Shown here piece by piece: positions 13,275 through 30,879 of a stretch of 64,000 nucleotides of DNA (the first letter of the stretch is position 1; every line of letters starts with the position of its first letter). The stretch comes from a virus. Location of the stretch: positions 62,001 through 126,000 of the IMG/VR virus record IMGVR_UViG_3300008267_000003. One strand, 5' to 3'. Position numbers and translations under genes: made by a program. Below the pieces are notes generated by a model that was not told the origin of the DNA, searched no databases, and saw nothing but the letters and a program-made list of their open reading frames with translations.

Positions 13275-14603
13275 ATGATGTTAGCTGAAGAATTACAATC
13301 AAAATGGGATCCTATTCTGACTCACCCAGATTTAGCTCCTATTAAAGATCAGCATCGTAGAAGCGTTACCGCTGTTGTTCTAGAGAACACAGAGAAGGCA
13401 CTTCGCGAAGCCAATCAATACGTTCCACAAACACTTACAGAGACAGCTGCTAATGCAACTGGTGCTGATATCGATACTTTCGATCCAGTTCTTATCTCTC
13501 TAGTTCGCCGTGCAATGCCAAATCTAATTGCGTATGACATCTGCGGCGTTCAGCCAATGACTGGTCCTACCGGTTTGATCTTCGCAATGCGTTCCAAGTA
13601 TAGCAACAGCTCCAATAGCGGTGTTGAGAACTTCTACAATGAAGTTAACTCATCATTCTCTTCTGTTGTTACTGGTGCTAACACACTAGGTCAGAAGCAT
13701 GTTGGTGGTGTTCCTGGTAACACAACAACTGGTACTGCTAACCTTGCTGAAACAGGTATCTACAACTTCGGTTCAGGTATGTCTACAGCGCAAGCAGAAG
13801 CTCTAGGTACTTCAGGTAACGTTTCTTTTGCTGAAATGGCTTTCTCGATTGAGAAAGTAACTGTAACAGCTAAGTCACGTGCTCTAAAAGCTGAGTACAC
13901 AATGGAACTTGCACAAGATCTGAAAGCAATCCATGGTCTAGATGCTGAAACAGAACTAAGCAACATTCTCTCTTCAGAGATCCTTGCTGAGATCAACCGT
14001 GAAGTTGTTCGTACAATCAATGTTACTGCTACACGTGGTGCTACTGAGAATACAACAACAGCTGGTCGTTTTGACCTTGACACAGACTCAAACGGTCGTT
14101 GGAGCGTTGAGAAGTTCAAGGGTCTAATGTTCCAAGTTGAGCGTGAAGCTAACCAAATTGCCAAGGCTACACGTCGTGGTAAAGGTAACATGATCATCTG
14201 TTCTTCTGACGTTGCTTCTGCACTTCAGATGGCTGGTGTTCTTGATTACGCTCCTGCTCTAAACAGCAACAACCTAAACGTTGATGACACAGGTAACACT
14301 TTCGCTGGTGTTCTAAATGGTCGTATCCGTGTTTACATCGATCCATATGCAACTGGTAACTACATGACTGTTGGTTACAAAGGCGCATCTGCATTCGACG
14401 CAGGTCTGTTCTATTGCCCATACGTTCCTCTACAAATGGTTCGTGCAGTTGATCCTGACAGCTTCCAGCCTAAGATTGGCTTTAAGACTCGTTACGGAAT
14501 GGTTGCAAACCCATTTGCTGAAGGTTCGACAGCTGGTCTAGGTGCTCTAACCAAAGATTCTAACGTTTACTACCGTAGACTCATGGTTGACAACCTAATG
14601 TAA
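13275..14603 (+). CDS. 23: Major capsid protein gp23
   Basis: 442 residues (T4: 521 before cleavage). Conserved blocks include DTFDPVLISLVRRAMPNLIA and DICGVQPMTGPTGLIFAMR near residues 65-110 and the GYKGASAFDAGLFYCPYVPL block near 375-395. Its codon choice (many GGT, GCT, CGT codons) is more biased than in its neighbours, as expected for the most abundant protein. An AAGGAG site precedes ATG 13275. Confidence 0.97.
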   Translation: MMLAEELQSKWDPILTHPDLAPIKDQHRRSVTAVVLENTEKALREANQYVPQTLTETAANATGADIDTFDPVLISLVRRAMPNLIAYDICGVQPMTGPTGLIFAMRSKYSNSSNSGVENFYNEVNSSFSSVVTGANTLGQKHVGGVPGNTTTGTANLAETGIYNFGSGMSTAQAEALGTSGNVSFAEMAFSIEKVTVTAKSRALKAEYTMELAQDLKAIHGLDAETELSNILSSEILAEINREVVRTINVTATRGATENTTTAGRFDLDTDSNGRWSVEKFKGLMFQVEREANQIAKATRRGKGNMIICSSDVASALQMAGVLDYAPALNSNNLNVDDTGNTFAGVLNGRIRVYIDPYATGNYMTVGYKGASAFDAGLFYCPYVPLQMVRAVDPDSFQPKIGFKTRYGMVANPFAEGSTAGLGALTKDSNVYYRRLMVDNLM

Positions 14604-20869: not shown

Positions 20870-21381
20870 TGATATATGATTTAGTAGCTCCAGACCACCC
20901 ACTGCTAAGAACAAAGCTGGAGAGGTTTGATTTCAACAACCCTCCAATCAACCCACACGAGCTAACTAATAACCTTATCGAGACAATGATCCACTATAAG
21001 GGTATTGGTCTTTCTGCTAACCAATGTGGTTTACCGTACAGAGCTTTTGTACTATGGTCCAATCCAACAAAAGTAATCTTTAATCCAGTCGTAGCTGATG
21101 TATCCACAGAGCAGATTATGCTGGAAGAAGGTTGTGTCACATATCCAAATCTGTTTATCAAAATTAAACGTCCTAAGCTAGTACGTATTCGCTACATGGA
21201 TTCTTTTGGTGAGTCGCATACTGATAAGTTTACTGGTATGTCAGCACGGTGCGTATTACACGAAGTAGATCATTTGAATGGTGTTAACTTTACATTCAAA
21301 GCAAATAAGTTTCATTATGATCAAGCAATGAGACAAAGGAATAAGCGTCAAAAATCTTATAAGGTGCCTGAATATGAGTAA
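20869..21381 (+). CDS. def: Peptide deformylase
   Basis: 170 residues. All three family motifs are present: GIGLSANQ (45-52), EGCVT (87-91, with the metal-binding Cys) and HEVDH (131-135, with the His pair and catalytic Glu). It removes the formyl group from new proteins. Phage deformylases are known from marine viruses and are thought to keep translation going late in infection. Confidence 0.93.
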   Translation: MIYDLVAPDHPLLRTKLERFDFNNPPINPHELTNNLIETMIHYKGIGLSANQCGLPYRAFVLWSNPTKVIFNPVVADVSTEQIMLEEGCVTYPNLFIKIKRPKLVRIRYMDSFGESHTDKFTGMSARCVLHEVDHLNGVNFTFKANKFHYDQAMRQRNKRQKSYKVPEYE

Positions 21382-22225
21382 AATTAAAGTAGCCGAGCTG
21401 TTCTACAGCTTGCAGGGTGAAGGTAAGTATGTAGGTGTTCCTAGTGTGTTTCTACGGACGTTTGGATGCAACTTCATGTGTAGTGGTTTTGGTATGCCAA
21501 AAGGAAGTGCCTCTAAAGAGCGAGATGTCATCGCTATGAATGTTGACGCATATAAGACCTATGATTCTCTTCCTCTTGTACATACAGGTTGTGATTCGTA
21601 TGCCAGCTGGGATCCTAGATTCAAACATCTTTCTCCTGTACTTAGAACTGACAGTATCGTAGATTCTATTTTAGATCTATTACCTAACAAAGAGTGGAAG
21701 AATGAACACTTAATTATTACCGGTGGCGAGCCTCTTCTTGGATGGCAAAGATCGTATGAAGATCTGCTTTGGAATGATACGATGAGACCTTTGAAGTCTT
21801 TGACTTTTGAGACTAATGGTACACAACAGCTCACAGATGATTTCAAAAAGTTCCTGGCTAAGTATTCAAGCAAGCTCAATGGAAAAACAGAAGTGGTATT
21901 TTCTGTGAGTGCAAAGCTGAGTCCATCAGGTGAGAAGTGGGAGGAAGCTATTCTTCCTAAGGTAGTCGCAGAGTATGCTTGGTATGGTGAGGTTTATTTT
22001 AAATTCGTCGTTGACAAAGAGACGGATCTTGAGGAAATTGATAGAGCAGTAGCGGCGTATCGTGAACAGGGTATTGCTGGTGAAGTATATCTGATGCCTG
22101 TTGGTGGTACTGATCAAACTTATTTCAGCAACTACAAAGCCGTTGCAGAGATGGCTATGAAGCGTGGTTGGAGATATAGTCCCAGACTTCAGGTTGACAT
22201 CTGGAGAAATGCCTGGGGCACTTAA
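21374..22225 (+). CDS. queE: 7-carboxy-7-deazaguanine synthase QueE, variant cluster spacing
   Basis: 283 residues, a radical-SAM enzyme making CDG. YSLQGEGKYVGVPSVFLRTFG and the ITGGEPLL motif are typical of QueE. The cluster cysteines look like C32 and C36, then C73 in TGCDSYASWD, which aligns with the usual WCDT segment. A roughly 35-residue insertion therefore separates the last cysteine from the other two. It overlaps the deformylase gene by 8 bases and heads the deazaguanine set. Confidence 0.88.
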   Translation: MSKIKVAELFYSLQGEGKYVGVPSVFLRTFGCNFMCSGFGMPKGSASKERDVIAMNVDAYKTYDSLPLVHTGCDSYASWDPRFKHLSPVLRTDSIVDSILDLLPNKEWKNEHLIITGGEPLLGWQRSYEDLLWNDTMRPLKSLTFETNGTQQLTDDFKKFLAKYSSKLNGKTEVVFSVSAKLSPSGEKWEEAILPKVVAEYAWYGEVYFKFVVDKETDLEEIDRAVAAYREQGIAGEVYLMPVGGTDQTYFSNYKAVAEMAMKRGWRYSPRLQVDIWRNAWGT

Positions 22226-22678
22226 ATGGATATAAACTACAATGATTTCCAAAAAGCAATTGCTTGCCTTGTTTCACAGGTCAGAAACAGTAAGATTGAG
22301 TTTGACTATGTTGTTGGAATCTCTCGTGGGGGGCTTGTTCCTGGTGTTGTTATTTCTCACCGTCTTCAGATTCCTTTTCGGGCTGTTGAGTGGTCATTGA
22401 GAGATTCACATAAAAAATACATTCCACCAGACATTGTTGTTGATGCATGGGAAGGTAGTAAAATACTTTTCATAGATGATATTGTTGATAGTGGTGAAAC
22501 TTTCATAACTATACGTAATAAGTTTGGAGAGTCTTTCAAAAATGTTAAAATAGCTTGTGTGGTTTATAATAAAGCACAGGATCTGGTTACTCCGGACTTT
22601 TGGTTCAGACAAATAGATAGAAACGTAGATAAAGAGTGGGTTAACTTCTGGTGGGAGAAAAATGAATCAACCAATTAA
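22226..22678 (+). CDS. Type I phosphoribosyltransferase
   Basis: 150 residues. The PRPP-binding motif ILFIDDIVDSGET lies near residues 78-90 and the N-terminal VVGISRGGLVPGV loop near 28-41, as in purine phosphoribosyltransferases. It starts one base after queE and overlaps the queD-like gene, so it may serve purine or deazaguanine base metabolism. That link is inference from the operon only. Confidence 0.82.
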   Translation: MDINYNDFQKAIACLVSQVRNSKIEFDYVVGISRGGLVPGVVISHRLQIPFRAVEWSLRDSHKKYIPPDIVVDAWEGSKILFIDDIVDSGETFITIRNKFGESFKNVKIACVVYNKAQDLVTPDFWFRQIDRNVDKEWVNFWWEKNESTN

Positions 22679-23162
22679 ATATAAGTACGTGTCTACGAAA
22701 GAATATGTAGATGCGTTTCCAGTAGCATACCGTCAGTGGCGTGCTGACTCGCACTGTAACCTTATTCATGGTTACAGTTTTTCGATGAAGTTTTATTTCG
22801 GTACTAATGATCTTGATGTTCGTAATTGGGCAGCTGATTATGGTGGATTGAAAGAGCTTAAAGAAGTACTACAAGATCAATTTGATCACACCCTGCTTGT
22901 TGCAGAAGATGATCCTGAGCTGGAAACATACAAGATTCTGCAGGAGAAGAAGATGGCCAAGCTAACCATTCTTCCTAAACTTGGCTGTGAAGGTCTTGCT
23001 GATCAGCTGTACAAGTATATGAACGGTGTATATATTCCAGACTACTGGGGTGTGGGTGAAGCTAAGCGTTTGTGGTGCTATCGTGTAGAAGTACGAGAGA
23101 CACAAAGCAACATGGCTTTCCGTGAGGGTCATCGTGAGTGGAATGAGGATCTTTTTGCGTGA
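22662..23162 (+). CDS. QueD-like 6-carboxytetrahydropterin synthase homologue with altered metal site
   Basis: 166 residues of the PTPS/QueD tunnel fold: HCNLIHGYSFSMKFYF near residues 31-46 and a C-terminal VEVRETQSNMA. The usual zinc triad is His, then HxH. Here the first position appears as Tyr23 and the HGH motif reads H36-G-Y38, so two ligands seem replaced, while the Cys32 before the motif remains. Either the metal site is rebuilt or this copy has a changed role. It overlaps the phosphoribosyltransferase gene. Confidence 0.72.
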   Translation: MNQPIKYKYVSTKEYVDAFPVAYRQWRADSHCNLIHGYSFSMKFYFGTNDLDVRNWAADYGGLKELKEVLQDQFDHTLLVAEDDPELETYKILQEKKMAKLTILPKLGCEGLADQLYKYMNGVYIPDYWGVGEAKRLWCYRVEVRETQSNMAFREGHREWNEDLFA

Positions 23163-23939: not shown

Positions 23940-24254
23940 ATGGTAACAAAATCTAAAGTGGATCCGGACACAGGTTATACCCCGGAGCAGCAACTGGAGG
24001 CTTTCAACAATGTATTCTCAAAAAAGCCCAAGCGCAAACTGGCTCGCAATCCGGATCCAGTAGCGACAGAGAAGCCACAGACAAAGTCCGTGGATCTGAA
24101 GACTCAGGCAGTAAACCTGTACGGTCAAGGTCTGAGCGCAAAGGACGTAGCAAAGACTCTTAGCATCACGTATGCTAACGCTTACTACTACAAGCGCTTT
24201 GTTGGTGCAGATGTAGCTAAGGCTCGTCTGGATCAAGCACTGGCTCGAGTATAA
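23940..24254 (+). CDS. Helix-turn-helix protein, 104 aa
   Basis: ATG 23940 has an AGGAG site; an upstream TTG at 23922 is less likely. The basic N-terminal half is disordered. Residues 58-92 (LKTQAVNLYGQGLSAKDVAK, then TLSITYANAYYYKRF) form a resolvase-like HTH. It lies just before the first large RNA and may regulate early genes; that is inference. Confidence 0.6.
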   Translation: MVTKSKVDPDTGYTPEQQLEAFNNVFSKKPKRKLARNPDPVATEKPQTKSVDLKTQAVNLYGQGLSAKDVAKTLSITYANAYYYKRFVGADVAKARLDQALARV

Positions 24255-24266
24255 GTATTAAAGTGG

Positions 24267-24287
24267 GGTGCGACACTTCAACGCACC
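24267..24287 (+). repeat. Short hairpin that competes with the first 18-bp stem
   Basis: GGTGCG (24267-24272) pairs with CGCACC (24282-24287) over a 9-base loop. Its last two bases are also the first two of the 18-bp stem beginning at 24286, so the two helices cannot both be complete. Confidence 0.5.
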
Positions 24288-24967
24288 ATATTGAAGCACA
24301 CTGATCCTCAAGGGCACGAGAGGTGGTGTAACCCTAATGCCGGGTGAAGGTTCGAATCCAGCAGTGTGTTTCAATATGGTAACCCAACTAACTGTGATAC
24401 CAGTACGACATGCTGGGTAGCGGTTATCATAACCAGAATAGTAAAACAGAAACATTCTCTGTGATGTGTGCCTTGCTAGGAAACACAGGTACTTACCCTG
24501 TGTGATAGAATTAGCATTGAGGAGTCACGAAAGTTGAGATAGCGTGAGGGAGACTCAGCATGTTTCTGTTTGGCAAGATTTTGAAATAAAACAGAAATGT
24601 GCGTTCTGTCTCTGCAGAGAGTTCAGCAAGGGTTTGATGCGGTAATGACTTCGACATCATGTAACAGTCAGTTCCTTGTTAGCATTAATATTAATTTAGA
24701 GTAACTGAGGCGCTTCACCTCAGGGCGACCAGTGTGAGCCTGCTTTAAGTAGGACAGCTCGCAGAATCAAAGAAGCAAGAATCCGGTTACTACTTCCCTG
24801 AAAGTAGCGTTTGATTAGCGATAGAGATCCGGTGGCAGAAAACCGTTAGCGAGGCAACCCCTCAGACTCTGATAGGCAGTATCCCTCTGCACACAGACAA
24901 CAGAATAAAAGGGATGGACAGGGTAACAACTCGAGGGAGGGGCTAGCGTGGAAAACAGTAGCCTCCC
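24286..24967 (+). ncRNA. Large structured noncoding RNA 1 (GOLLD/ROOL-like candidate)
   Basis: About 680 bases with no supportable gene and dense pairing. A perfect 18-bp stem (24286-24303 with 24362-24379) closes a 58-base loop that contains a T-loop-like GGTTCGAATCC. Then come ACAGAAACAT / ATGTTTCTGT (24446-24455 with 24560-24569), hairpin ACACAGG / CCTGTGT (24483-24489 with 24497-24503), CTGAGG / CCTCAG near 24704-24722 and ATCCCT / AGGGAT (24881-24886 with 24910-24915). The terminal stem is 24935-24945 with 24959-24967. It ends 9 bases before a tRNA. The 3' domain matches RNA 2. The GOLLD/ROOL assignment rests on size, complexity and tRNA context, not on a model search. Confidence 0.78.
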
Positions 24968-24976
24968 ACTAATTCA

Positions 24977-25053
24977 GGGCCGGAAGCTCATTTGGTATGA
25001 GCAATCGACTCATAATCGATCGGCATTGGGTTCGAATCCCAAACGGCCCACCA
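24977..25053 (+). tRNA. tRNA with CAT anticodon (Met or Ile2)
   Basis: Cloverleaf with acceptor GGGCCG / CGGCCC, anticodon loop CTCATAA, T-loop TTCGAAT and encoded CCA. C4-G69 and C5-G68 resemble the identity pairs of the lysidine-modified tRNA-Ile2 more than elongator tRNA-Met, so Ile(AUA) is quite possible. Confidence 0.9.
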
Positions 25054-27099: not shown

Positions 27100-27189
27100 G
27101 GAAGCTTGGCTGAGTGGTTTAAGGCAGCGGTCTTGAAAACCGTCGATCGTTTGCGCGGTCCGTGAGTTCGAATCTCACAGCTTCCACCA
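27100..27189 (+). tRNA. tRNA-Ser (TGA)
   Basis: Acceptor GGAAGCT / AGCTTCC, anticodon loop CTTGAAA, long variable arm as in serine tRNAs, encoded CCA. The CCA is also the start of the next 18-bp stem. Confidence 0.95.
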
Positions 27190-27260
27190 TATAAAAGTAC
27201 ACTAACCACTACAGTAGGGATCCTGGTGGGGCTGCTACACCCTAGTGTACTTTTATATGG
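27187..27260 (+). repeat. 18-bp stem spanning two serine tRNAs
   Basis: A perfect inverted repeat: CCATATAAAAGTACACTA (27187-27204) pairs with TAGTGTACTTTTATATGG (27243-27260). The loop is 38 bases. The left arm begins with the CCA of tRNA-Ser(TGA) and the right arm ends with the first GG of tRNA-Ser(GCT). No T run follows, so it is not a terminator. Confidence 0.9.
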
Positions 27261-28685: not shown

Positions 28686-28752
28686 CTCAACTGGTTAGAG
28701 TAATCGGCTTTTAACCGATAAGTTGTGAGTTCGAGTCTCACCGCACCTACCA
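28676..28752 (+). tRNA. tRNA-Lys (TTT)
   Basis: Acceptor GGGTGCG / CGCACCT, anticodon loop CTTTTAA, T-arm GTGAG-TTCGAGT-CTCAC, encoded CCA shared with the next stem. Confidence 0.94.
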
Positions 28753-28834
28753 TATACAAACACATTCAAACACATAATGACGCCCGGGGTTATGGATTAC
28801 TGTTACGAGGATCCAAGAGTGTGTTTCTATATGG
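28750..28834 (+). repeat. 18-bp stem between tRNA-Lys and tRNA-Gln
   Basis: Bases 28750-28767 (CCATATACAAACACATTC) pair with 28817-28834 with one C-C mismatch. The loop has 49 bases. The left arm begins with the CCA of tRNA-Lys and the right arm ends 7 bases before tRNA-Gln. It has the same architecture as the stems at 24286, 27187 and 30385. Confidence 0.82.
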
Positions 28835-30312: not shown

Positions 30313-30387
30313 GCACCGTTCGTCTATCGGTTAGGACATTGCCCTTTCACGGCAGTAAGAGGAGTTCGATTCTCCTACGGTGTACCA
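30313..30387 (+). tRNA. tRNA-Glu (TTC)
   Basis: Acceptor GCACCGT / ACGGTGT, anticodon loop CTTTCAC, encoded CCA that also opens the 18-bp stem of the second large RNA. Confidence 0.95.
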
Positions 30388-30879
30388 TTTGATATGCTGG
30401 TTGTAAGCCATGGGCCGCAAGCCTGAGTAACTATCACAATATCTGGTTATCTCGAGTAACTCCAGTGAGTCGATAGCAAATAGTGCAGCCAGCATTTCAA
30501 ATGGTAACATAAAGGTTTGGCAGGAGCAGAGTCCAGTGGGAAGGACGACTAGGGGCCTGTAAAAACAAAGTAGTGAAACAATGGTATATCAACCATCAAA
30601 GTAGCGAACAGCCCTTATAGTAAACGGAGTAGCGGGAGAGAGTGATGTCTCAATGTGTCTACACCGGCCAAAAGAATCCCGTAGTCCCGTCTACGTTATT
30701 AACGGGGGTGTATTGGCACTAACCAGAACGCCAGGGTGCATACGATCACGGACCTCAAAACTCACTGACATGAGTGATAGAAACATCGTAGGTGGGTATC
30801 ACACCTTGTTTAACCAAAAGTAAATGTGATGGACAGAGTAACTGCTCAGGAGGGGGCTTATGGGAATGAGTAGCCTTCC
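30385..30879 (+). ncRNA. Large structured noncoding RNA 2 (same family as RNA 1)
   Basis: About 495 bases between tRNA-Glu and tRNA-Asn without a supportable gene. An 18-bp stem with one T-T mismatch (30385-30402 with 30487-30504) opens it. Then come ATGGT / ACCAT near 30582-30597, CCCGT / ACGGG and GTAG / CTAC nested near 30679-30705, ACTCA / TGAGT near 30761-30777, ATCACA / TGTGAT (30798-30803 with 30825-30830) and a terminal stem (30849-30860 with 30871-30879). The block GATGGACAGAGTAAC matches RNA 1 at 14 of 15 positions. The 3' end lies 8 bases before tRNA-Asn. Confidence 0.78.

Follow-up and report, generated by a model that had tools for sequence, protein, structure and literature searches.

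Positions 24286-24976 of the window (the whole stretch of 64,000 nucleotides analysed, taken from IMG/VR record IMGVR_UViG_3300008267_000003) are a real structured noncoding RNA region, but one made up of five or more separate modules in a row and not of one giant RNA. The modules are independent structured RNAs in a phage tRNA operon, and they are shuffled among the tRNA genes of uncultivated phages. We read the whole as a set of companion RNAs of a tRNA array, in which hairpins of the type found in module B may control or shield tRNA 3′ ends, and to this overall reading we assign a probability of roughly 0.55.

Separable RNA modules between an HTH gene and a tRNA

As the first-pass annotation had it, the stretch lies between an HTH gene and a tRNA and holds no supportable gene: the ORF list shows no sense frame of at least 40 aa wholly inside 24286-24976 and only two antisense frames, of 65 and 49 aa. 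Protein coding was dismissed for lack of a sense ORF. Just 5′, at window positions 21374-23162, putative proteins resembling QueE and QueD (7-deazaguanine synthesis) were recognised by eye. The stretch and its neighbours are arranged as follows:

3′ end at 24254: HTH ORF, the upstream neighbour
24286-24379, plus strand: module B, an 18-bp stem (24286-24303 with 24362-24379) closing a tRNA-like insert, with a T-arm (GGTTCGAATCC) at 24349-24359
24381-24434, plus strand: module D, an RNA of ~54 nt with an invariant AACTAACTGTGATAC-type core, found at 13 loci and aligned
24444-24571, plus strand: module X, an RNA of ~128 nt with a perfect 12-bp closing helix (24444-24455 with 24560-24571)
24586-24687, plus strand: module M, an RNA of ~100 nt with an H-type pseudoknot and two hairpins, from alignment and covariation
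24701-24780, plus strand: segment Y, ~80 nt
24782-24968, plus strand: module CA, an RNA of ~187 nt with a 5′ hairpin near 24790-24807 and an invariant GGACAGGGYAACAACTC at 24916-24932
24977-25053, plus strand: tRNA-Met (CAT), directly 3′ of CA

Folding of 24255-24985 yields -224.9 kcal/mol, compared with -205.2 +/- 5.6 for dinucleotide shuffles (z = -3.5), and none of 20 shuffles matched the native value. Taken part by part, B (z -5.65), X (-3.12) and, to a lesser degree, D (-1.86) are more stable than their shuffles, whereas M (-0.80) and the CA segment 24780-24976 (+0.67) are of ordinary stability, so that it is not energy alone but conservation and covariation that flag these two. Both long helices reported earlier were recovered to the base, namely the 18-bp stem of B, which includes one G-U pair, and a 10-bp helix (24446-24455 with 24560-24569) that grows to the 12 bp closing X. 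Scans for promoters (8, versus 4.8 +/- 2.1 in shuffles) and terminator-like sites (4, versus 1.3 +/- 1.1, with 0 inside 24286-24976) are uninformative.

Strong compensatory changes are present in CA, M and the B stem, which is the covariation in homologous phages that the first-pass annotation had named as a test. For CA, the full alignment was uninformative in RNAalifold because its middle is misaligned, and pairs were instead counted in sequence-anchored form: the 3′ hairpin P1 (GGGAGG/CCTCCC) is 92.4% paired, as opposed to 59.2% and 61% with partners shuffled in two counts, and occurs in 44 distinct arm combinations; the 5′ hairpin covaries too. The five helices of M, the H-type pseudoknot among them, are 98.3% paired, with 10 pairs changed on both sides and a result equalled in 0 of 500 shuffles.

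The modules recur elsewhere, separately and in different orders, which is where the claim of a single giant RNA fails. Profile searches of the listed IMG/VR loci returned 154 matches to CA in 141 loci, usually as the only module between tRNAs, and 15 matches to M in 13 loci, where it adjoins tRNA-Glu or stands in three tandem copies (L210). M lies 5′ of CA in the window and 3′ of it in L010, a phage contig that also bears a tmRNA match at 13913-14302 (beta_tmRNA 137 bits, permuted tmRNA 120.5 bits). At its other loci, D is found 4 nt 3′ of a B stem and/or 3-5 nt 5′ of a tRNA; among the listed loci, X has relatives at two (L214 and L224) and Y at one (L123). Scans of IMG/VR with short conserved strings from CA and from B each retrieved at least 119 stretches where we estimate ~14 by chance, in contigs that are partly redundant and with counts that cover the listed loci.

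The neighbouring HTH gene, present in six IMG/VR loci, allows the same site to be compared among relatives. Between HTH gene and tRNA, L001 (HTH protein 90% identical) retains no more than a B stem, its insert being a different one, and L004 has CA alone, the 3′ part of the stretch, before tRNA-Met; in L003, 9 bases separate the HTH gene from tRNA-Met. Since these relatives differ in content, the stretch is an assembly of parts that are present at some loci and missing at others. The window itself carries a second, divergent CA:

30705-30878, plus strand: second CA, directly 5′ of tRNA-Asn

Model R1 of CA scores this copy at E = 4e-10 and the first one at E = 1e-33. Some 200 nt of further noncoding sequence lie between the second CA and the trailer hairpin of tRNA-Glu, and the region as a whole (30385-30878) is probably another of the earlier 'giant RNA' candidates.

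Neither B nor CA matches any family in Rfam 15. CA is absent from 50,697 phage records by blastn, an exact 33-base pattern used as a single-element homologue search found no match, and blastn against cultured phages gave tRNA or chance-level matches only. In bacterial genomes the B pattern is not enriched, with 22 matches against our estimate of ~60 expected by chance. One Lake Pavin contig binned as a Planctomycetia MAG (L239) bears several B-like stems and is possibly a misbinned phage contig. We found no description of these modules in the literature, within a coverage that stops short of subscription papers and most preprints.

Relation to GOLLD and ROOL

The first-pass annotation proposed one giant ornate RNA of the GOLLD or ROOL kind with a variable 5′ part. 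GOLLD (RF02032) is a phage noncoding RNA found beside tRNAs, whose linker can hold tRNAs, and ROOL (RF03087), likewise noncoding and from phages, is frequently located near tRNA islands (PMC12286853). The window region resembles both in being phage noncoding RNA that adjoins tRNAs, and its size and whole-region folding score would also fit. That a structured noncoding RNA lies beside phage tRNAs has held up; the proposal that it belongs or is related to GOLLD or ROOL has not. The covariance-model search that had been suggested gave no match to either family in the window at Rfam thresholds, where Rfam 15 yields tRNAs only, nor around the element at E <= 10, and the membership cut-offs (>150 bits for GOLLD, >99.1 bits for ROOL) were not reached. 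Across the whole 162-kb virus record, the GOLLD model found nothing; nor did the ROOL model, a weaker result as its control was silent, and the ROOL negative relies mainly on cmscan.

A genuine GOLLD (214 bits) does occur at L035:1381-1845; it encloses a tRNA and has a B stem on one side and CA on the other. Its place between B and CA could be taken to favour the giant-RNA reading. It was recovered by the same kind of scan, however, so that a GOLLD in the window would have been detected, and it indicates that a real GOLLD can be one more module among the others. The GOLLD layout, a conserved 3′ and a variable 5′ domain within one long RNA, differs from what we see: the conserved CA is free-standing in most loci, and the window parts, of ~50-190 nt each, are separable and variable in order. 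With membership refuted by sequence, we regard a single giant RNA of this kind as highly improbable.

Hairpins at the tRNA CCA end and their exchangeable inserts

The B stem follows the consensus CCATATTGAARCACAYT ... AGTGTGTTTYAATATGG, around an insert of ~23-135 nt. In 144 of the 153 tRNA-abutting copies among the listed loci, it begins exactly at the encoded tRNA CCA, which thereby lies inside a helix of ~17 bp; the tRNAs concerned are mostly those for Lys, Glu, Leu, Ile and Gln. In the 17-bp alignment, 96.3% of positions are paired versus 74.4% after shuffling, and 118 cells versus 29 are changed on both sides, although the 96.3% is partly built in, as trailer stems were selected for pairing; the contrast with shuffled trailers is not affected by that selection, and the shuffled trailer rate of 1/1116 is the fairer control. 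That rate derives from a census of loci picked via CA and not via B, counting stems with a score of at least 12 that start from CCA: 65 of 1116 tRNAs carry one, compared with 1 after shuffling. The stems are unevenly distributed in these CA-chosen loci, being most frequent on tRNAs for Lys (27/46) and Glu (16/51), followed by Ile, Leu and Gln, with none for Met (0/97), Arg (0/103), Thr (0/61) or Asp, and the same bias emerged from a stricter census that dropped stems with the far arm in another called tRNA. A 12-bp CCA stem was found on 0 of 60 tRNAs from five cultured phages with tRNAs, a small control.

Three hairpins of this design lie downstream in the window:

27187-27260, plus strand: trailer of tRNA-Ser(TGA), a B-type hairpin pairing with the CCA around a different insert
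28750-28834, plus strand: trailer of tRNA-Lys(TTT), a hairpin pairing with the CCA around its own insert (z -4.1)
30385-30504, plus strand: trailer of tRNA-Glu(TTC), a hairpin pairing with the CCA around an insert of family S (TAAGCCATGGGC...GAGTAACTAT...ATAGCAAATAGTGC)

Family S recurs in six further loci (L022, L081, L096, L115, L116 and L125). By a looser count of the listed loci, 259 of 439 B copies, including the one at 24286-24379, have no called tRNA directly upstream. With no intact tRNA before it and a tRNA-like insert, the latter copy looks like a free-standing derivative, and since it is not behind a tRNA, a trailer role would be read from its relatives. Over this B, no match to RF00005 was obtained and the tRNA-Sec model reached 14.5 bits (E 1.6); the T-arm motif is present.

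The position of B is reminiscent of theta ribozymes, which cleave at a G just 3′ of gut-phage tRNAs, mostly ones that lack an encoded CCA (PMC10879173). Like them, B is a structured RNA beginning at a phage tRNA 3′ end; that shared slot, and the pseudoknot in M, would suit modules that act as ribozymes maturing tRNA ends. In B, however, the CCA that is paired is encoded and the inserts can be swapped, the base following the CCA is U and not the G of an HDV-like cleavage site, and no Rfam ribozyme family was detected in the window or in 14 rich loci, except for a group I intron in L153. We consider ribozyme activity the least probable of the readings weighed here. The intron match (L153:13185-13378, 53.4 bits, minus strand) lies in a tRNA array.

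The inserts are exchangeable. Among 339 B copies on 164 contigs of the listed loci, 284 different inserts fall into 209 clusters, 15 of which occur in at least three contigs and two contexts, that is, behind different tRNAs or none. Conversely, the insert differs at a single site: the tRNA-Glu trailer has 45 nt inserted in L054 and 63 nt in L099, and a short loop in L044 and L030. A tRNA T-loop is found in 22 of the 209 clusters, that of the window B included (shuffled mean 0.4), in most cases separated from the 3′ arm by 3-6 nt, a tRNA-like spacing. Anticodon-arm-like hairpins are weakly enriched in inserts (13 versus 4.5 shuffled), and insert stability is not raised (mean z -0.34, compared with -0.38 for random pieces of the same loci).

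Identical inserts at many sites, differing inserts at one site, presence or absence among close relatives and the many copies with no tRNA in front would all be expected if B hairpins were MITE-like palindromes, a selfish mobile DNA that settles at the 3′ ends of tRNAs and carries the inserts as passengers. Mobile elements of this sort would not explain the compensatory changes in the stem, nor its commonest second-from-apex pair, a U-G wobble of a kind that would be lost from a palindrome maintained as DNA; the stem stands in a constant register with the CCA, moreover, and inspection by eye revealed no target duplication. We therefore judge this origin quite unlikely.

Proposed companion RNAs of a phage tRNA array

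What might such modules do? Stable RNAs of unknown function have been known from phage tRNA arrays for a long time, species 1 and 2 of phage T4 among them. CA, M, D and X may occupy the same niche, probably as small RNAs that are transcribed along with the tRNAs and separated from them by host tRNA-processing enzymes. Like the T4 species (rnaC and rnaD), the window modules are noncoding RNAs inside a phage tRNA array, and rnaC has a T-arm (CCGGGTTCGAATCCCGG), as do the tRNA-like B inserts. Unlike in the window, trailers that pair with the CCA are absent from the T4 tRNAs, and at E <= 10 the profiles of CA, M, D, X and Y detect nothing in the T4 region, rnaC and rnaD included. The tRNA 3′ external transcribed spacers of E. 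coli, which act as sRNA sponges, resemble B in being trailers of tRNA transcripts with an RNA role of their own; to our knowledge, they do not form a CCA-pairing hairpin with exchangeable inserts.

B is one copy of a hairpin type that is widespread and, as sequence and covariation show, commonly makes up the 3′ trailer of a tRNA, with the CCA at the foot of its ~17-bp helix and the insert at the apex. Most likely, this helix serves to control the 3′ end of the tRNA or to shield it. With the helix in place, neither trimming by exonucleases nor charging would proceed until the tRNA is freed by a double-strand cut (host RNase III is one candidate) or by some other trigger, and the insert would depart as a separate small RNA. 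Such a release step is assumed, as tRNA-Lys(TTT) and tRNA-Glu(TTC), the sole Lys and Glu tRNAs found in the record, both carry the hairpin, and a permanent block of maturation would cost the phage both. A search of the virus record for an RNase III gene returned none, so the host would have to provide the enzyme.

The Lys and Glu bias also invites a reading as anti-defence decoys or shields, in which capped tRNAs, tRNA-like inserts and companion RNAs absorb or resist host nucleases that attack tRNAs, be they anticodon nucleases or CCA-tail cutters such as Cas12a3. In favour of this, defence by tRNA cleavage is widespread, with CCA tails as the target of Cas12a3 (PMC12851939), the inserts are hypervariable, and some of them bear tRNA-like T-arms. 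Yet anticodon-arm-like hairpins are enriched only weakly, stems are found on Ile and Leu tRNAs too, and a stem would also deny the phage the use of these very tRNAs, which makes decoys rather unlikely in our view. A search of the record for the T4 RNA-ligase family gave no match, with a silent control. More tentatively than the reading as tRNA-array companions, we may be dealing with a modular RNA cassette, in which a helix that caps the CCA of Lys and Glu tRNAs and of a few others, its swappable inserts and the companion RNAs regulate tRNAs or protect them from host attack.

For phage genomes more broadly, a lengthy structured gap next to tRNAs need not be a single giant RNA. The modules described here are common, covarying RNA families that are missing from Rfam 15, and they sit in the long-known niche of phage tRNA-array RNAs; what is new is not this niche but the CCA-capping, insert-swapping design. 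A helix that engages the tRNA's own CCA and carries a swappable insert offers an experimental handle on it.
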